Positions 4,324-33,948 of a stretch of DNA of 38,434 nt are shown here, one piece after another (position 1 is the first letter of the stretch; each line of letters starts with the position of its first letter). The position numbers were made by a program, and so were the translations under genes. Location of the stretch: the NCBI GenBank assembly GCA_013359225.1, contig JABWCG010000005.1, forward strand, positions 1 through 38,434. The letters are read 5' to 3'. A model generated the notes under the pieces. That model did no database searches and was not told the origin of the DNA. It was given only the letters and a program-made list of their open reading frames with translations. This stretch comes from Candidatus Buchananbacteria bacterium. GTDB taxonomy: Bacteria > Patescibacteriota > Patescibacteriia > Buchananbacterales > UBA6539.

Positions 4324-4713
4324 ATGGCCAAAAAGAAAATAAAAATTTTAGTGGTTGAAGATGAGGAATTTTTGTTGGAGCTCTACGAGATGAAATTACG
4401 CGAGTCGGGTTACGATGTTTTTATTGCCAGTAACGGCCAGGAAGGCTATGGTTTGGCGGAGCTAGAAAAGCCGGATTTAATTTTACTTGATTTGTTAATG
4501 CCGGAAGTCGATGGTTATGATATGTTGCGTAAATTAAAAGAAAACCCTGCCACCAAGCAAATTCCGGCAATTATTTTTTCCAACCTGTCGCAAAAAGAAG
4601 AAATTGAAAAAGGTTTAAAACTTGGTGCAAAAGATTTTATTATCAAGACCAGTATTACGCCGTCGCAACTGGAAGCAAAAGTTAAGGAATTTTTGCGGAA
4701 ATATAAAAAGTAA
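4324..4713 (+). CDS. Single-domain response regulator (CheY-like receiver)
   Basis: The 129-residue protein is a receiver domain only. It has the acidic pocket (E12, D13), the phosphoacceptor D56 in LILLDLLMP, Ser in FSNLS at the Thr/Ser switch position, and the conserved Lys in IIKTSI. There is no output domain, so it would act by protein-protein interaction, as in phosphorelays. No histidine kinase is nearby, and the partner is unknown. It has its own promoter and a strong terminator and is therefore monocistronic, with no SD. Receiver identity is secure; the pathway is not. Confidence 0.93.
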   Translation: MAKKKIKILVVEDEEFLLELYEMKLRESGYDVFIASNGQEGYGLAELEKPDLILLDLLMPEVDGYDMLRKLKENPATKQIPAIIFSNLSQKEEIEKGLKLGAKDFIIKTSITPSQLEAKVKEFLRKYKK

Positions 4714-4729
4714 TTTTTTAAAAAAATAT

Positions 4730-4753
4730 AGCTAGCGGTCAGCTAGCTTTTTT
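4730..4753. terminator. Bidirectional terminator between the response regulator and the reverse small-peptide gene
   Basis: AGCTAGC (4730-4736) pairs with GCTAGCT (4742-4748) around GGTCA. T runs follow on the forward strand (4746-4753). On the reverse strand it is followed by ATATTTTTTT, so it can end transcripts from both sides. Confidence 0.85.
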
Positions 4754-4780
4754 GTATCGGTTGTTGCTAATTAAGTAGAG

Positions 4781-4840
4781 AGGGCCAGCCGCAGTCCTCT
4801 CTCGAAAGTGAAAAGTGAGATGTGGATGTTGGCTGGCCCT
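4781..4840 (-). repeat. 10-bp inverted repeat in the 3' region of the small-peptide transcript
   Basis: AGGGCCAGCC (4781-4790) and GGCTGGCCCT (4831-4840) are perfectly complementary across 40 bases that include a weaker TCTC/GAGA pairing. No U tract follows immediately on either strand, so it looks like a folded 3' end or stability element ahead of the terminator at 4730-4753. Confidence 0.6.
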
Positions 4841-4855
4841 GTTTGGCCTCGTGGT

Positions 4856-4903
4856 GTGATCCTGGCGTTAGCCAGGGGAAACCCGCGTCGTGGGTTAGAT
4901 CAC
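4856..4903 (-). other. Predicted three-way-junction RNA element overlapping the stop codon of the small-peptide gene
   Basis: GTGAT (4856-4860) pairs with ATCAC (4899-4903). They enclose two hairpins: CCTGGC/GCCAGG (4861-4866 with 4871-4876, loop GTTA) and AACCC/GGGTT (4880-4884 with 4892-4896). Nearly all bases are used, and the second hairpin contains the TAA stop of the reverse gene (4897-4895). The fold is seen in the sequence; a function is inference. Confidence 0.45.
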
Positions 4904-5053
4904 GTTGAGGCCGGCCGCGTTCGCCAGGTTGTTCGTCATCGCGCCGATGTCGTCGTTCTGCTTGCCGACGGGATTCTTCGCATTCGCGTTGCCGATGTCT
5001 TCGTTCAGCGGATTCAGCGTCTGCGGCGTGTTGGCGTTGCGATTCGCGTGCAT
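4895..5053 (-). CDS. 52-residue Asn/Ala-rich peptide with a strong SD
   Basis: AGGAGG lies 9 bases before the ATG at 5053-5051, with a good promoter upstream, so this short frame is well supported. The peptide begins MHANRNANTPQ and is rich in Asn, Ala, Asp and Gly, with no Cys, no hydrophobic segment and no clear charge block; it looks disordered. I recognise no family. Its leader of about 90 bases can form AGCC-GCAA-GGCT, a stem with a GNRA loop, just before the SD. It is divergent from ileS, whose promoter overlaps this region, and is followed by a predicted junction fold, an inverted repeat and a terminator. A longer frame back to 5137 would start upstream of the SD and is rejected. It could be a small regulatory or secreted-by-other-means peptide; no function is claimed. 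Confidence 0.65.
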   Translation of the reverse strand: MHANRNANTPQTLNPLNEDIGNANAKNPVGKQNDDIGAMTNNLANAAGLNVI

Positions 5054-5148
5054 AGTTTGGTTCCTCCTGGATCCTTGTCTGGGAGCCTTGCGGCTTTCCG
5101 TGTGCAGTTTTGGTTTGGGCGCTCTTGTGGCCCGCACCTATAAAAATA

Positions 5149-8121: not shown

Positions 8122-9132
8122 ATGAATCTTAAACAAATTTATGAGTTAGGCGTTACGCTTGGGATTGAAACGGACCTGCGCGGCAAGAAGGCAGTATTAA
8201 AACACTTGAAACGCCGAAAGGAAAAATATGATCGCTTGGATGCTAAATCAAAAAAACGTTTTGATTTAGAGAGTTTAACTAACCCATATTCAGACACTAG
8301 AGTTTTTGTGGATCCAAAACGAGAAATTAAAAAAGTGCTTGCCGGCATTGACATCGGTCCAGCGGAAATTTTGATGGCTAAAGCGTTGGGAGTTGATGCG
8401 GTAATTGCCCATCATCCGGTTGGCAGCGCGTTGGCGGATTTGGGGGACGTGATGCATTTGCAGGCAGAAGTTTTGGCCGGCTACGGCGTGCCAATTAATA
8501 TTGCTCAGTCGCTAACCAAAGAACGAATTTCTGAAGTAGCGCGCGGGATGTCGCCGATTAACCATTACCGCGGCGTGGATACGGCTGAGCTGTTTAATAT
8601 CGGTCTGATGTGTATCCATACGCCGACTGATAATATGGTTGCCAGTTTTCTTGACACTCATCTAAAAAAAGCTAAGCCAGAATTTGTTGGCGATGTTGTG
8701 GACGCTCTAGAAGAAATTCCGGAATACCAAAAAGCCATTGAACAAAAGACCGGACCAAAAGTTTTTGTCGGCAGCCGAGATAACTTTATTGGCAAGTTGG
8801 TTTTAACTGAAATTACCGGCGGTACCGAAGGCGCGGTGGGAATCTATGAAAAAATGGCGCAGGCCGGTATTGGTACGATCGTTGGCATGCATATGGCTGA
8901 AGATCGTAAAAAGGAAGCGCAGAAAAATCATGTGAACGTGGTGATCGCCGGGCACATGTCTTCAGATTCGCTTGGTATGAATTTGTTTTTAGATGAACTA
9001 GAGCGCCGGGGCGTTGAAATTATTCCTTGCTCAGGACTGATTCGGGTTAGCCGGATTAAACGGCGAACTCCTGCGAAAAAGAAGCTGGTTGCTAAAAGTA
9101 AACCAAAACCTAAAGCCCGCAAGAAAAAATAA
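8122..9132 (+). CDS. NIF3/DUF34-family metal-binding protein
   Basis: The 336-residue protein carries the family's metal-site motifs: AHHPVG (H97, H98), HTPTDN in the middle, and AGHMSSDSLGMN in the last quarter. The family binds a dinuclear metal centre; its cellular role is debated (GTP cyclohydrolase I-like or general conserved hydrolase proposals). The N-terminus has an unusual basic lead-in of about 50 residues, and the last about 25 residues form a Lys/Arg tail (KPKPKARKKK) that could bind nucleic acid. It lies 12 bases behind ileS, has no SD, and a strong terminator follows. Confidence 0.88.
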   Translation: MNLKQIYELGVTLGIETDLRGKKAVLKHLKRRKEKYDRLDAKSKKRFDLESLTNPYSDTRVFVDPKREIKKVLAGIDIGPAEILMAKALGVDAVIAHHPVGSALADLGDVMHLQAEVLAGYGVPINIAQSLTKERISEVARGMSPINHYRGVDTAELFNIGLMCIHTPTDNMVASFLDTHLKKAKPEFVGDVVDALEEIPEYQKAIEQKTGPKVFVGSRDNFIGKLVLTEITGGTEGAVGIYEKMAQAGIGTIVGMHMAEDRKKEAQKNHVNVVIAGHMSSDSLGMNLFLDELERRGVEIIPCSGLIRVSRIKRRTPAKKKLVAKSKPKPKARKKK

Positions 9133-9142
9133 TTGTTAAAAA

Positions 9143-9171
9143 AGCGAGCCTGGAGTAAGGCTCGCTTTTTA
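9143..9171. terminator. Terminator after the NIF3-like gene, usable in both directions
   Basis: AGCGAGCC (9143-9150) pairs with GGCTCGCT (9159-9166) around TGGAGTAA, flanked by A and T runs on both sides. It ends the ileS-NIF3 transcript and could back up the reverse non-coding transcript. Confidence 0.9.
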
Positions 9172-9179
9172 TTTTTGAA

Positions 9180-9362
9180 AAAAGGAAAGGGCAGGCTGGC
9201 TTAGGAACTCGACCAAAGAGTGTCTCAAGTCAGCACTGCCCCTACGGAATCGGGTTAGAGGTTGTGGCGCTTCAGAAGCACTGCACTCGCCTGATGGGTG
9301 AAAGGCCCTCCTTTTTGATGCCCAGGCAAGGCTGCACATATCGTTAGCGCTACCCTTTCCGC
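9180..9362 (-). ncRNA. Candidate structured non-coding RNA, about 180 bases, rod-like
   Basis: This gene-free stretch has its own consensus-like reverse promoter (9369-9397) and a 3' terminator hairpin. The hairpin is GGGCAG-U-GCTG (9241-9231) with CAGC-CTGCCC (9198-9189), with ACTTGA/TCGAGT inside, then TTTCCTTTTTT. The body folds end to end: CGGAA (9361-9357) with TTCCG (9249-9245), GGGT (9355-9352) with ACCC (9255-9252), GCGC (9350-9347) with GCGC (9270-9267), TGCA (9336-9333) with TGCA (9285-9282), and TTGCCTG (9329-9323) with CAGGCGA (9293-9287). An apical AAAGG-AGGG-CCTTT hairpin (9314-9301) contains an SD-like GGAGG. The rod recalls 6S RNA in size and shape, but identity is inference; I see no tmRNA, SRP or RNase P signature. 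Confidence 0.55.
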
Positions 9363-9368
9363 GTTCAA

Positions 9369-9397
9369 AACTTATCGTAGCAGTAAAATTTTGTCAA
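9369..9397 (-). promoter_or_regulatory. Promoter of the candidate non-coding RNA
   Basis: On the reverse strand: TTGACA (9397-9392), a 17-base spacer and TAAGTT (9374-9369). It starts just 5 bases past the terminator of the upstream reverse gene, as expected for an independent unit. Confidence 0.8.
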
Positions 9398-9401
9398 GTA
9401 A

Positions 9402-9433
9402 TAAAAAAACTCCGTGGATTTTCCAGAGGGAGT
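9402..9433 (-). terminator. Terminator of the inositol-monophosphatase-family gene
   Basis: On the reverse strand ACTCC (9433-9429) pairs with GGAGT (9413-9409). An inner TGGA/TCCA stem lies between them, and TTTTTTT follows (9408-9402). Confidence 0.8.
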
Positions 9434-9444
9434 CGGGTGAGTGA

Positions 9445-10314
9445 CTAACCATTCAGTTCACTAATGCGTGAGCGATGAATAATCAGCCATTCGTGTTCGG
9501 TGAACACTGTTTGCTTTTGCGGTTTAGGGTCGTCAATGGCCCAAGTGTCGCCAGCGTGGTCGGACCGAAGAAATTCAAATCCGAGTTTTTGGCTGATGCC
9601 TAAAATCGGACAAAAGTCCCAGGGCGTGTTTGGCCCTGGTTTGAGAACCGCGCCGCCAACTTCGCCTTTCCAAAGCCGAGCCATGCTCAAACCAATACTG
9701 CCTTCCGCCATGCTGACGTTTTTGAAAACTTGGCGGTCAATGACGTCACGGACGTGTTGGGAATGCTCGCTTGGCAACTCCCGAAGCAAAAGCCATTGGT
9801 TAGCCAGCTTGTGAGCTGGATTAATGGTCAGTGTTTCAGCGATATGAAATTCGCTGATGCGGTGAGCTTGATCGGAATCCGGACGAAAACCGAATATCTC
9901 TTGGGTCATGACGTCGCCGATGTACGCGGCAATAACTTCGCCGTTGCATACCAGCGAAATCATCGTTCCGATTCCAAACGATTGTCTTCGGCCGAACGCT
10001 TTTGTACCGTCAAGCGGGTCAACGGTAAACCAAATATCGGTGTCCGGCAAAGAGCATTCAATCCGCAGATTGTTTTCTTCACCAACCGCGCCAAAGTTGG
10101 GAAAACATTCGGTGATCATTCGCACATAAACTTCTTGTGCGAGTTTGTCGGCCGTCGTGACCAAGTCGTCCATTTCGCCGGAGTAGCCTTGTTTGGCCTC
10201 GGCTTCAAAGATGAAACGTTGTTGCCGAATCACTTCGATCGCTCGGCGAACCGCTCCCTTCATGATGATCGCGATGGCGTGACCATTCATACTACCAAAA
10301 ATTCTTGGTTTCAT
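9445..10314 (-). CDS. Inositol monophosphatase-family phosphatase
   Basis: Mg-dependent sugar/inositol phosphatase fold, 289 residues from the chosen start. Seen: the metal-site motifs GEE (78-80), DPLDGTKAF (D99, D102) and WDFCPILG (W232, D233). Substrate cannot be told from sequence; family members act on inositol-1-phosphate, 3'-phosphoadenosine-5'-phosphate, fructose-1,6-bisphosphate or histidinol phosphate. ATG 10314 is chosen because AAGGA lies about 10 bases upstream and because the longer frame back to TTG at 10383 would start inside the -35 box of its own promoter. It is divergent from ruvA, with a shared -35 region. It has its own terminator and is somewhat richer in GC than ruvA. 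Confidence 0.88.
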   Translation of the reverse strand: MKPRIFGSMNGHAIAIIMKGAVRRAIEVIRQQRFIFEAEAKQGYSGEMDDLVTTADKLAQEVYVRMITECFPNFGAVGEENNLRIECSLPDTDIWFTVDPLDGTKAFGRRQSFGIGTMISLVCNGEVIAAYIGDVMTQEIFGFRPDSDQAHRISEFHIAETLTINPAHKLANQWLLLRELPSEHSQHVRDVIDRQVFKNVSMAEGSIGLSMARLWKGEVGGAVLKPGPNTPWDFCPILGISQKLGFEFLRSDHAGDTWAIDDPKPQKQTVFTEHEWLIIHRSRISELNG

Positions 10315-10354
10315 TGAACTTGATTCCTTATCGGGTTGGTTAAAGAGCATTTTA

Positions 10355-10383
10355 TCTGTATCATTGGAAATGAGTTTTGTCAA
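10355..10383 (-). promoter_or_regulatory. Promoter of the inositol-monophosphatase-family gene
   Basis: On the reverse strand: TTGACA (10383-10378), a 17-base spacer and TACAGA (10360-10355), giving a leader of about 35 bases. The -35 box overlaps the ruvA -35 box by 5 bases on the opposite strand. Confidence 0.65.
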
Positions 10384-12734: not shown

Positions 12735-12763
12735 TTGACAAAGATGCAAAATCTTGATAAGAT
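12735..12763 (+). promoter_or_regulatory. rpoBC promoter
   Basis: TTGACA (12735-12740, full consensus), a 17-base spacer and TAAGAT (12758-12763). Predicted start near 12770 gives an unusually long leader of about 220 bases. Confidence 0.85.
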
Positions 12764-26189: not shown

Positions 26190-26648
26190 TTACATGATGT
26201 CGCCTTCAAGAATTTGATCTAGTTTCTGATCAAGGTCTTCAAGCTTGAGACGATCTTTGTCGTCTGGCGCTTTTTCGTCGGCTGGTTTACTAGCACCGTC
26301 GGCGGATGTCAAAGCAGGTTTTGCTTTGGTGATGTTAGTTTTGATAACCGTTTTTCTGCTCAAACTGCGCTTAACAATAATGTGGCGCAATAATTCTGAA
26401 CTGAGTTTTAGATTGCGGCTTAAGTCTTTTAGCTTACTGCCTTCAAGATCAAATTCATACAGCAGATAGTAGCCCTGATGATTTTTACTGATTGGATAGG
26501 CAAGCTTTTTTTTGCCCAAACTTTCTTCAAGGGTAATCTGGCCACCGAATTTTTTGATTTCGTCAGCCACTTTTTGTTTGATCGGCTCCAACTCTTCTTC
26601 AGTGTAGTTGGCGGCGACCAAATACAACAATTCATAGTGATTGGTCAT
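26190..26648 (-). CDS. rpsF: 30S ribosomal protein bS6
   Basis: The bS6 fold occupies about residues 1-105 (HYELLYLVAANYTEEEL; KKLAYPISKNHQGYYLLYEF; LLRHIIVKR). A C-terminal extension of about 45 mostly Lys/Asp/Glu residues makes the protein (152) longer than usual for bS6, and the final LEDLDQKLDQILEGDIM looks helical. It is the first gene of the operon, behind a leader of about 150 bases with competing hairpins. The start MTNHYELLY matches the family; no SD precedes it. Confidence 0.95.
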   Translation of the reverse strand: MTNHYELLYLVAANYTEEELEPIKQKVADEIKKFGGQITLEESLGKKKLAYPISKNHQGYYLLYEFDLEGSKLKDLSRNLKLSSELLRHIIVKRSLSRKTVIKTNITKAKPALTSADGASKPADEKAPDDKDRLKLEDLDQKLDQILEGDIM

Positions 26649-26798
26649 AGTTTTTTATAAAAAATGCCCAAGGTGTTTCCTTGCGCTATGTAACTACGGT
26701 TACGTATTGTGAGAAAGACACCTTTCCTTATCTCTAGGTTGGATAAGGATATTGTCCCTGCAGTAAAGGCGGGACTGGAAAAGGCTTAATTGTTAAGT
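26649..26798 (-). promoter_or_regulatory. Structured leader of the rpsF operon, possible S6:S18 control site or attenuator
   Basis: On the reverse strand the leader can form CCTTATC/GATAAGG (26748-26742 with 26732-26726). AAGGTGT (26724-26718) can pair with ACACCTT (26676-26670), enclosing GTAAC-CGTA-GTTAC (26703-26690). The competing hairpin CAAGG-AAACA-CCTTG (26683-26669), followed by GGGCATTTTTT, uses the same CCTT bases, so the two folds exclude each other. An AACCG triplet lies at the inner stem-loop. In several bacteria the S6:S18 dimer binds a CCG-containing leader structure of this operon; applying that here is inference. Confidence 0.5.
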
Positions 26799-26804
26799 AT
26801 GAGC

Positions 26805-26833
26805 ATAGTATCATGATTTTCCGGAGTCGTCAA
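26805..26833 (-). promoter_or_regulatory. Promoter of the rpsF-ssb-rpsR-efp operon
   Basis: On the reverse strand: TTGACG (26833-26828), a 17-base spacer and TACTAT (26810-26805), giving a leader of about 150 bases. It overlaps the divergent promoter of the methyltransferase gene. Confidence 0.8.
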
Positions 26834-26845
26834 GTGTGCTATACT
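26817..26845 (+). promoter_or_regulatory. Promoter of the Trm11-like gene, predicting a leaderless mRNA
   Basis: The -10 box TATACT (26840-26845) is good; the -35 at 26817-26822 (TTTTCC) is poor. The ATG at 26854 is 8 bases past the -10 box. Confidence 0.55.
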
Positions 26846-32487: not shown

Positions 32488-33948
32488 ATGGCGAAATTGC
32501 CGCCGAACGTGCAGTACATTGGCCCTGAGAGTTTGGGGCTACCATTGGCAACCGGTAAGGTGCGAAACACCTATGCCGTGCCTGGACATGACGATTTGCT
32601 GTTGCCGCTGGCAACCGACCGTCTTTCCATTTTCGACTTTGTGCTTAACGCACTGGTCAAAAACAAAGGCGAGATTTTAAACGCCATGAGTGTTTTTTGG
32701 CGCTTACGCCTGTTGGCTGATCGGTGTCCGCATGACCTAGTGGCGTGCGGCGCAGCGATTGATGATTTTTTGTTGCCCAGTCTGCGCGGCAACATTGAAC
32801 TGCAAAAGCGCGCCGTTGTGGTGCGTAAACTCAAGATGGTTCCCCGCGAGATGATCGTGCGCGGATACCTGACCGGCTCTGGCTGGCCAAAGTATCAAGA
32901 GACCGGAGAGGTCTGTGGCCATAAGTTGCCGCCTGGGTTGCACGACGGTTCAAAGTTACCGTATCCGATTTTCACACCAACCAGCAAGGCGACAGTGGGA
33001 CACGATGTTCACGTTGACGCCAACAGCGTGGTGGCGGAATTTGGTTTCGGTTACGAGCGGACCGTGCTACAACTGTACGGATTGGCACGCGACTTTTGCG
33101 CCGAACGTGGCATTCTTTTGGTTGATACCAAGTTTGAGATGGGCGAAGGCGTTGTCTTTGGCGACGAACTGTTGACGCCCGACTCCAGCCGATTTTGGTC
33201 GCGTGACGCCTGGCTTGCGGCCCAAGCCAAAGGCAAGGTGCCACCAGCGTTTGACAAGGAATTTGTCCGCACTTGGGGCAAGGGTCTTGGCATTGACAAA
33301 CGCAATCCGGAAAATCCCGATGATGTTGATTGGGTGCACGCGCAAGTCGTTCCGCCAGAGATCTTGGCGACAACGACTCAGATTTACCGCTACATTTTCT
33401 GGCGCCTGACCGACAAGAAGCTGGAAGTGTTTCAGGCTGACGAGATGGGTATTGACGTTGACCAGCCCGAAATCAACGTCGACGTTGTCGTTGGCAGCGA
33501 AAGCGATTTGCCGCAGGTTACCAGCGCGGTTGAAGAGGTGCGGGAGCTGTCTGGTGCCGGACAAGTTCGGTTGCACGTGTGCAGCTGTCATCGCAACCCC
33601 GACATGCTGCGAATGTACATTGAACAGCTCAAGGATGTTGACGTCATCGTAGCCGGTGCTGGCAAAGCGGCGGCGCTACCGGGCGTTGTCAAGAGTTGGC
33701 TTGGCCATTTCGGCAAAGATCATATTCCTGTCATTGGCGTGGCGTTGGAGGGGTCTGACTATGCCGACAATGACGCGGCGGAACTGTCCATTGCTCAGTT
33801 GCCCGGCCAGCCGGTTGAACTTGACGCCGAAGGCAGGGTTTATTTTGGGGCGCAAGGGATGCGTCGGGCGCTCAAGGCGGCGGTGGAGGATGAATTCCTG
33901 CCGCGTAAGATTTCGCCCAAGGAGGCAAAGTTCAATATCGGTGCGTGA
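32488..33948 (+). CDS. purC-purE: Fused SAICAR synthetase (PurC) and PurE-type AIR carboxylase/mutase
   Basis: One 486-residue chain. Residues about 10-320 are PurC: ATDRLSIFDFVL, PREMIVRGYLTGSGWPKYQ, PIFTPTSKATVGHD, DTKFEMG and LTPDSSRFW. Residues about 330-480 are PurE: VVVGSESDLP (from V332), the catalytic-His motif in CSCHRNPD, and AGAGKAAALPGVV, where class I enzymes read GGAAHLPGM, so a conserved His is Ala. Domain order matches the animal PAICS fusion, but the PurE half resembles bacterial class I more. Together it converts AIR to SAICAR. No purK is in the window. Start ATG 32488 with GGAGG 10 bases upstream. GC-rich, own promoter and terminator. Confidence 0.92.
   Translation: MAKLPPNVQYIGPESLGLPLATGKVRNTYAVPGHDDLLLPLATDRLSIFDFVLNALVKNKGEILNAMSVFWRLRLLADRCPHDLVACGAAIDDFLLPSLRGNIELQKRAVVVRKLKMVPREMIVRGYLTGSGWPKYQETGEVCGHKLPPGLHDGSKLPYPIFTPTSKATVGHDVHVDANSVVAEFGFGYERTVLQLYGLARDFCAERGILLVDTKFEMGEGVVFGDELLTPDSSRFWSRDAWLAAQAKGKVPPAFDKEFVRTWGKGLGIDKRNPENPDDVDWVHAQVVPPEILATTTQIYRYIFWRLTDKKLEVFQADEMGIDVDQPEINVDVVVGSESDLPQVTSAVEEVRELSGAGQVRLHVCSCHRNPDMLRMYIEQLKDVDVIVAGAGKAAALPGVVKSWLGHFGKDHIPVIGVALEGSDYADNDAAELSIAQLPGQPVELDAEGRVYFGAQGMRRALKAAVEDEFLPRKISPKEAKFNIGA

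Follow-up and report, generated by a model that had tools for sequence, protein, structure and literature searches.

A candidate orphan small RNA gene downstream of a NIF3-like gene in a Candidatus Buchananbacteria genome

The 38,434-nucleotide stretch of DNA analysed here (the window) comes from an ultra-small bacterium with a 1.01 Mb Patescibacteria assembly, whose nearest named relatives carry the labels Patescibacteria or Candidatus Buchananbacteria. At positions 9133-9444 it contains a 312-base gap, flanked on one side by a NIF3/DUF34 protein gene (8122..9132, plus strand; Pfam PF01784) and on the other by an inositol monophosphatase family gene (9445..10383, minus strand; Pfam PF00459). 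An earlier note read into this gap a stand-alone, rod-shaped non-coding RNA gene, possibly 6S-like. Is there an RNA gene in the gap and, if so, of what kind? We give a probability of roughly one half to the reading that the stretch 9178-9362 (minus strand) is an independently transcribed, ordinary orphan small RNA gene, probably trans-acting.

The unit opens with a −35 hexamer TTGACA (9392..9397) and, 17 bases further on, a −10 hexamer TAAGTT (9369..9374), both on the minus strand and both recognised by direct reading, by pattern search and by comparison with promoters of relatives. For TTGACA-N17-TANNNT, 0.33 occurrences are expected in the window and two are found; the second copy (12735-12763, plus strand) lies ahead of rpoB. 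In relatives, TTGACA-17-TAAGTT or TTGACA-17-TAATAT precedes genes, and three of their stretches (L003, L005 and L013) likewise have TAAGTT at 17 bases. Matches of the DNA search to query bases 1-36 proved to be promoters of unrelated genes, which supports the validity of the minus-strand promoter. The reverse-strand promoter claimed in the earlier note is thus upheld and, judging from these sequence comparisons, belongs to a type that this lineage uses.

From this promoter to the U run, the predicted RNA (9178..9362, minus strand) measures about 185 nt, its start being placed from the promoter to within ±2; the earlier estimate of about 180 bases agrees with this. Its G+C content is 55%, compared with 44% for the window and 38% for the flanks of the gap. 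Structured RNAs are usually hunted in long G+C-rich intergenic regions (PMC8723152). The whole RNA (taken as 9170-9375) has a minimum free energy (MFE) of −74 kcal/mol and a z of −3.45 against dinucleotide shuffles. The gap 9133-9444 ranks first for structure among the non-coding gaps of the window (best z −6.4), with two coding-related gaps coming close in score.

The MFE structure of the RNA consists of two domains, a 5′ domain and a separate terminator hairpin. The 5′ domain (118 nt, 9245..9362, minus strand) is closed by GCGGAA/UUCCGU with a predicted closing stem probability of 0.87-0.99 and, taken alone, folds with a z of −2.5. Two alternative shapes are predicted for it: one irregular rod (−43.3) and a multibranched fold (−44.1). 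Two of its segments are unpaired in the prediction: the anti-Shine-Dalgarno-like CACAACCUCUA (9256..9266, minus strand), a possible seed, and a pyrimidine-rich CACCCA. The apical loop had been described as presenting GGAGG; the predicted loop is AGGG, but the leading GG is paired, with an unpaired probability of 0.02-0.03 in the predicted ensemble, which leaves GGAGG exposed by half.

The 3′ hairpin (9187..9244, minus strand; −27.5 kcal/mol, z −3.7) is followed by the tail UCCUUUUUU (9178..9186, minus strand). Stability and tail both fit the strong terminator described earlier, but a simple terminator scan does not list this hairpin; the U run starts three bases beyond its stem.

Each neighbouring gene has a terminator of its own. 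That of the phosphatase gene (9403..9433, minus strand) was found by direct reading as ACTCC..TGGA AAA TCCA..GGAGT followed by T7; it separates this gene, which lies upstream on the same strand, from the RNA. That of the convergent NIF3-like gene (9139..9170, no strand assigned) has T runs on both strands and was found by the terminator scan of the plus strand and by direct reading. The RNA unit therefore stands alone. A frame check of 9133-9444 found no credible reading frame across the gap.

Thus, the unit shows what is generally expected of an independent small RNA: a host-type promoter, a 3′ intrinsic terminator and no translated frame. With a promoter and a terminator of its own around a folded RNA of some 185 bases, the stretch probably encodes a small regulatory RNA. 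The claim of a stand-alone non-coding RNA gene gains further support from a similar unit in one relative (described below). Going by this anatomy, we consider it quite probable that RNA 9362-9178 is a real transcript.

The rod shape was examined by permitting a 5′ part to pair solely with a 3′ part, with 60 shuffles for each test and E. coli 6S RNA as the control. The control retained −80.4 of −80.5 kcal/mol (z −7.4). Forced into a rod, the full candidate RNA reached −52.6 kcal/mol, 19 above its MFE of −71.9, and did not outperform shuffles (z −0.9). The 5′ 118-nt domain, in contrast, kept −43.3 of −44.1 (z −3.7). The rod announced by the earlier note is therefore found in the 5′ domain but not along the whole length. 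An 11-bp end-to-end complement, GGAAAGGGUAG/CUGCCCUUUCC, does exist, with a predicted pairing probability of about 0.003, and it probably gave rise to the rod idea.

These results bear directly on the 6S question. The candidate resembles 6S RNA (RF00013, ssrS) in its length near 180-190 nt, its single copy, its sigma-70-type promoter and its intergenic position. At about 185 nt it lies within the 6S range of roughly 160-200 nt; the similar unit of the relative is about 138 nt long. It differs from 6S RNA in having no full-length rod and no covariance-model match. The central open bubble between closing and apical stems, a 6S trait with two arms, is also absent, as the closing stem has a probability of 0.003 and the MFE structure is two-domain. 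The 6S covariance models (RF00013 and related 6S families) matched neither the window at gathering nor the gap at E≤10. A 6S-like identity is thus unlikely. We consider it very unlikely that the RNA acts as an open-promoter mimic that sequesters RNA polymerase: length, single copy, promoter type, the end-to-end complement and a host genome with no detected 6S would all suit such a function, but a full-length rod at shuffle level, in a test that E. coli 6S passes, the closing stem probability and the missing Rfam match at E up to 10 speak against it. Among 55 relatives, 6S RNA was not detected by covariance model, while control genomes matched.

None of the other families searched accounts for the RNA. 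Rfam gave no family at gathering score in the whole window, and a permissive scan of the gap (E≤10) returned chance-level matches alone, so the Rfam search that the earlier note had proposed, 6S families included, yielded no credible match. The best Rfam score, 27.2 bits for RsaE/RoxS (RF01820) against a gathering score of 79, fell mainly over the NIF3 terminator outside the RNA and was rejected. As a working analogy, RsaE/RoxS and other C-rich, Shine-Dalgarno-targeting small RNAs of Firmicutes are also stand-alone and also combine a terminator hairpin with pyrimidine-rich segments left unpaired, although the score stays below gathering. The bacterial SRP RNA (RF00169) is likewise an elongated small RNA, but no SRP match appeared in the gap at E≤10. 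Neither covariance models nor ARAGORN found SRP RNA, RNase P RNA or tmRNA in the gap; RNase P RNA is located elsewhere in the source genome.

We then consider relatives of the RNA. A DNA search of 191 relatives gave no recognisable homologue, all matches beyond the window itself being promoter-like or due to chance, and a covariance-model search of 35 relatives found the window as the sole match. The order of the source genome comprises just 12 genomes. With no second member from either sequence or structure models, covariation cannot be counted. For the same reason, the suggestion of a new family was not sustained, and the comparison of related genomes proposed in the earlier note offered no compensatory changes to count. 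Neither phages nor plasmids matched the RNA stretch, and the gap sequence is single copy in the source genome.

Gene neighbourhood nevertheless led to a similar unit in genome G002 of the same family (stretch L032). Its NIF3 is 78% identical, and the unit lies in the NIF3-ruvA gap, where its position and strand match those of the candidate. It is about 138 nt long and has a TTGACT-17-TAGGAT promoter and a 91-nt rod plus terminator hairpin (z −5.1), followed by CUCCUUUUUU. A T run follows the closing stem on the plus strand too, and the strand of this unit is therefore likely rather than certain. The gaps of the source genome and G002 have in common the 14 identical bases TCCTTTTTTCAAAA, which include the tail UCCUUUUUU, at the 3′ end of the RNA; 1 of 300 shuffles reached this length. 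The 5′ domains show no such agreement: 323 of 400 shuffles scored as well, and neither domain's covariance model finds the other. A significant-looking pairwise alignment of the two RNAs was set aside, since its signal is confined to the 3′ tail and the bodies have no detectable likeness. From sequence and position, the two units are possibly homologous. In G003 (L033) the gap holds a different gene and no such RNA unit, and 20 further stretches downstream of NIF3 had no comparable minus-strand unit.

Among structured RNAs that BLAST fails to follow between genera, the best precedent is Ms1 of Actinobacteria, which was missed by cross-species BLAST and traced via gene neighbourhood (PMC9130861), as was the counterpart in G002. 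Ms1 is longer (about 300 nt), has a central bubble plus extra hairpins, is phylogenetically conserved and was found by experiment to be bound to RNA polymerase (PMC9130861).

The realistic rival of an RNA gene is a gap with no RNA function at all: the convergent genes would be separated by a structured spacer or a reinforced terminator that contains a promoter by chance. We regard it as somewhat unlikely. The body sequence lacks conservation, the neighbours are convergent and gene ends commonly carry hairpins, but each neighbour is already terminated, the promoter type matches genuine promoters, and G+C content and folding go beyond what terminators alone explain; the similar unit in G002 also argues against a mere spacer. 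That unit could belong to a fast-evolving class of stand-alone RNAs which keep their place by NIF3, the promoter, the rod-plus-terminator layout and the 3′ tail while the body turns over, and which would act as a global regulator. This is improbable; if true, it would mean body turnover between genera of this Patescibacteria family, in a lineage where 6S is undetected.

As the unit points toward the 3′ end of NIF3 in both genomes, a cis effect on the ileS-NIF3 operon was also weighed, in which the operon's 3′ end would be disturbed or shielded, whether by transcription from the convergent promoter or by the RNA. RNA positions 9244-9258 are complementary to NIF3 mRNA 9036-9050 at 13 of 15 bases, but this complement lies within predicted stems, is no larger than chance would give and was not seen in G002 by eye; given also a terminator on each side, we hold this effect to be quite improbable. 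A palindromic mobile or repeat element instead of a gene would agree with DNA that is G+C-rich and strongly self-complementary and with the absence of the adjoining phosphatase gene from this position in G002 and in G003; single copy, no phage or plasmid match, and the presence of promoter and terminator make it highly improbable. A small protein gene is scarcely credible: a 56-aa ATG frame (9339-9169) does span the region, but its stop codon comes after the U run, no ribosome-binding site is near, and no counterpart was seen in L032.

For an ordinary small RNA, the following course of events can be proposed. Housekeeping RNA polymerase would start at about 9362 on the minus strand, as the sequence anatomy suggests, and the transcript, ending at 9178, would adopt a rod-like 5′ domain followed by a terminator hairpin. 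The unpaired, pyrimidine-rich CACAACCUCUA and CACCCA might then lower the translation of a few mRNAs by pairing with their G-rich ribosome-binding sites. C-rich small RNAs have segments directed at ribosome-binding sites, and both of these stretches, like the C-rich loop in the L032 unit, are similar to those. Against the start regions of the window (n=25), CACAACCUCUA gave a duplex energy of −7.7 versus −6.3±0.8 for shuffled sequences, a value that is at best suggestive, for one of seven segments, uncorrected. The gene at 32488 is among the predicted targets. The apparent lack of a Shine-Dalgarno site in most genes here counts against this reading. Provided that the transcript is real, a base-pairing mode is possible but doubtful.

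Small RNAs of Patescibacteria are hardly described, and the literature searched yielded nothing relevant to them. As it stands, this is one orphan candidate and no new mechanism, yet with its clear promoter and terminator it offers a concrete target for RNA-seq of uncultured cells.

Several further observations were made in the course of the analysis. Going by their start regions, most genes in the window seem to do without a Shine-Dalgarno site, and a TATAAT-like box lies near the ATG in several of them, which suggests leaderless mRNAs. G002 and G003 do not have the phosphatase gene 9445-10383 at this position; NIF3 and ruvA otherwise lie near each other in them, and from this arrangement the gene looks like an insertion in the source genome. 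The small bacterial SRP RNA model (RF00169) matched neither the source genome nor G002, while 11 of the 14 controls matched. For tmRNA (source genome and L161), the source genome gave no match over the cut-off and tRNA-like partial matches alone, which may reflect an assembly gap; G002 has a clear tmRNA. Downstream of NIF3 and one small frame, L034, from another relative, has a non-coding stretch of about 370 nt (4690-5070, plus strand) that ends in a hairpin plus T7 and has no Rfam match; it contains AGTAGCGGCGAGCGAACGGGG, which we take to be reminiscent of 23S rRNA. Finally, a structured leader with a z of about −4 and no Rfam match at gathering was seen in the window at 26649-26835 (minus strand); the gene downstream of it (26190-26648) looks like rpsF.
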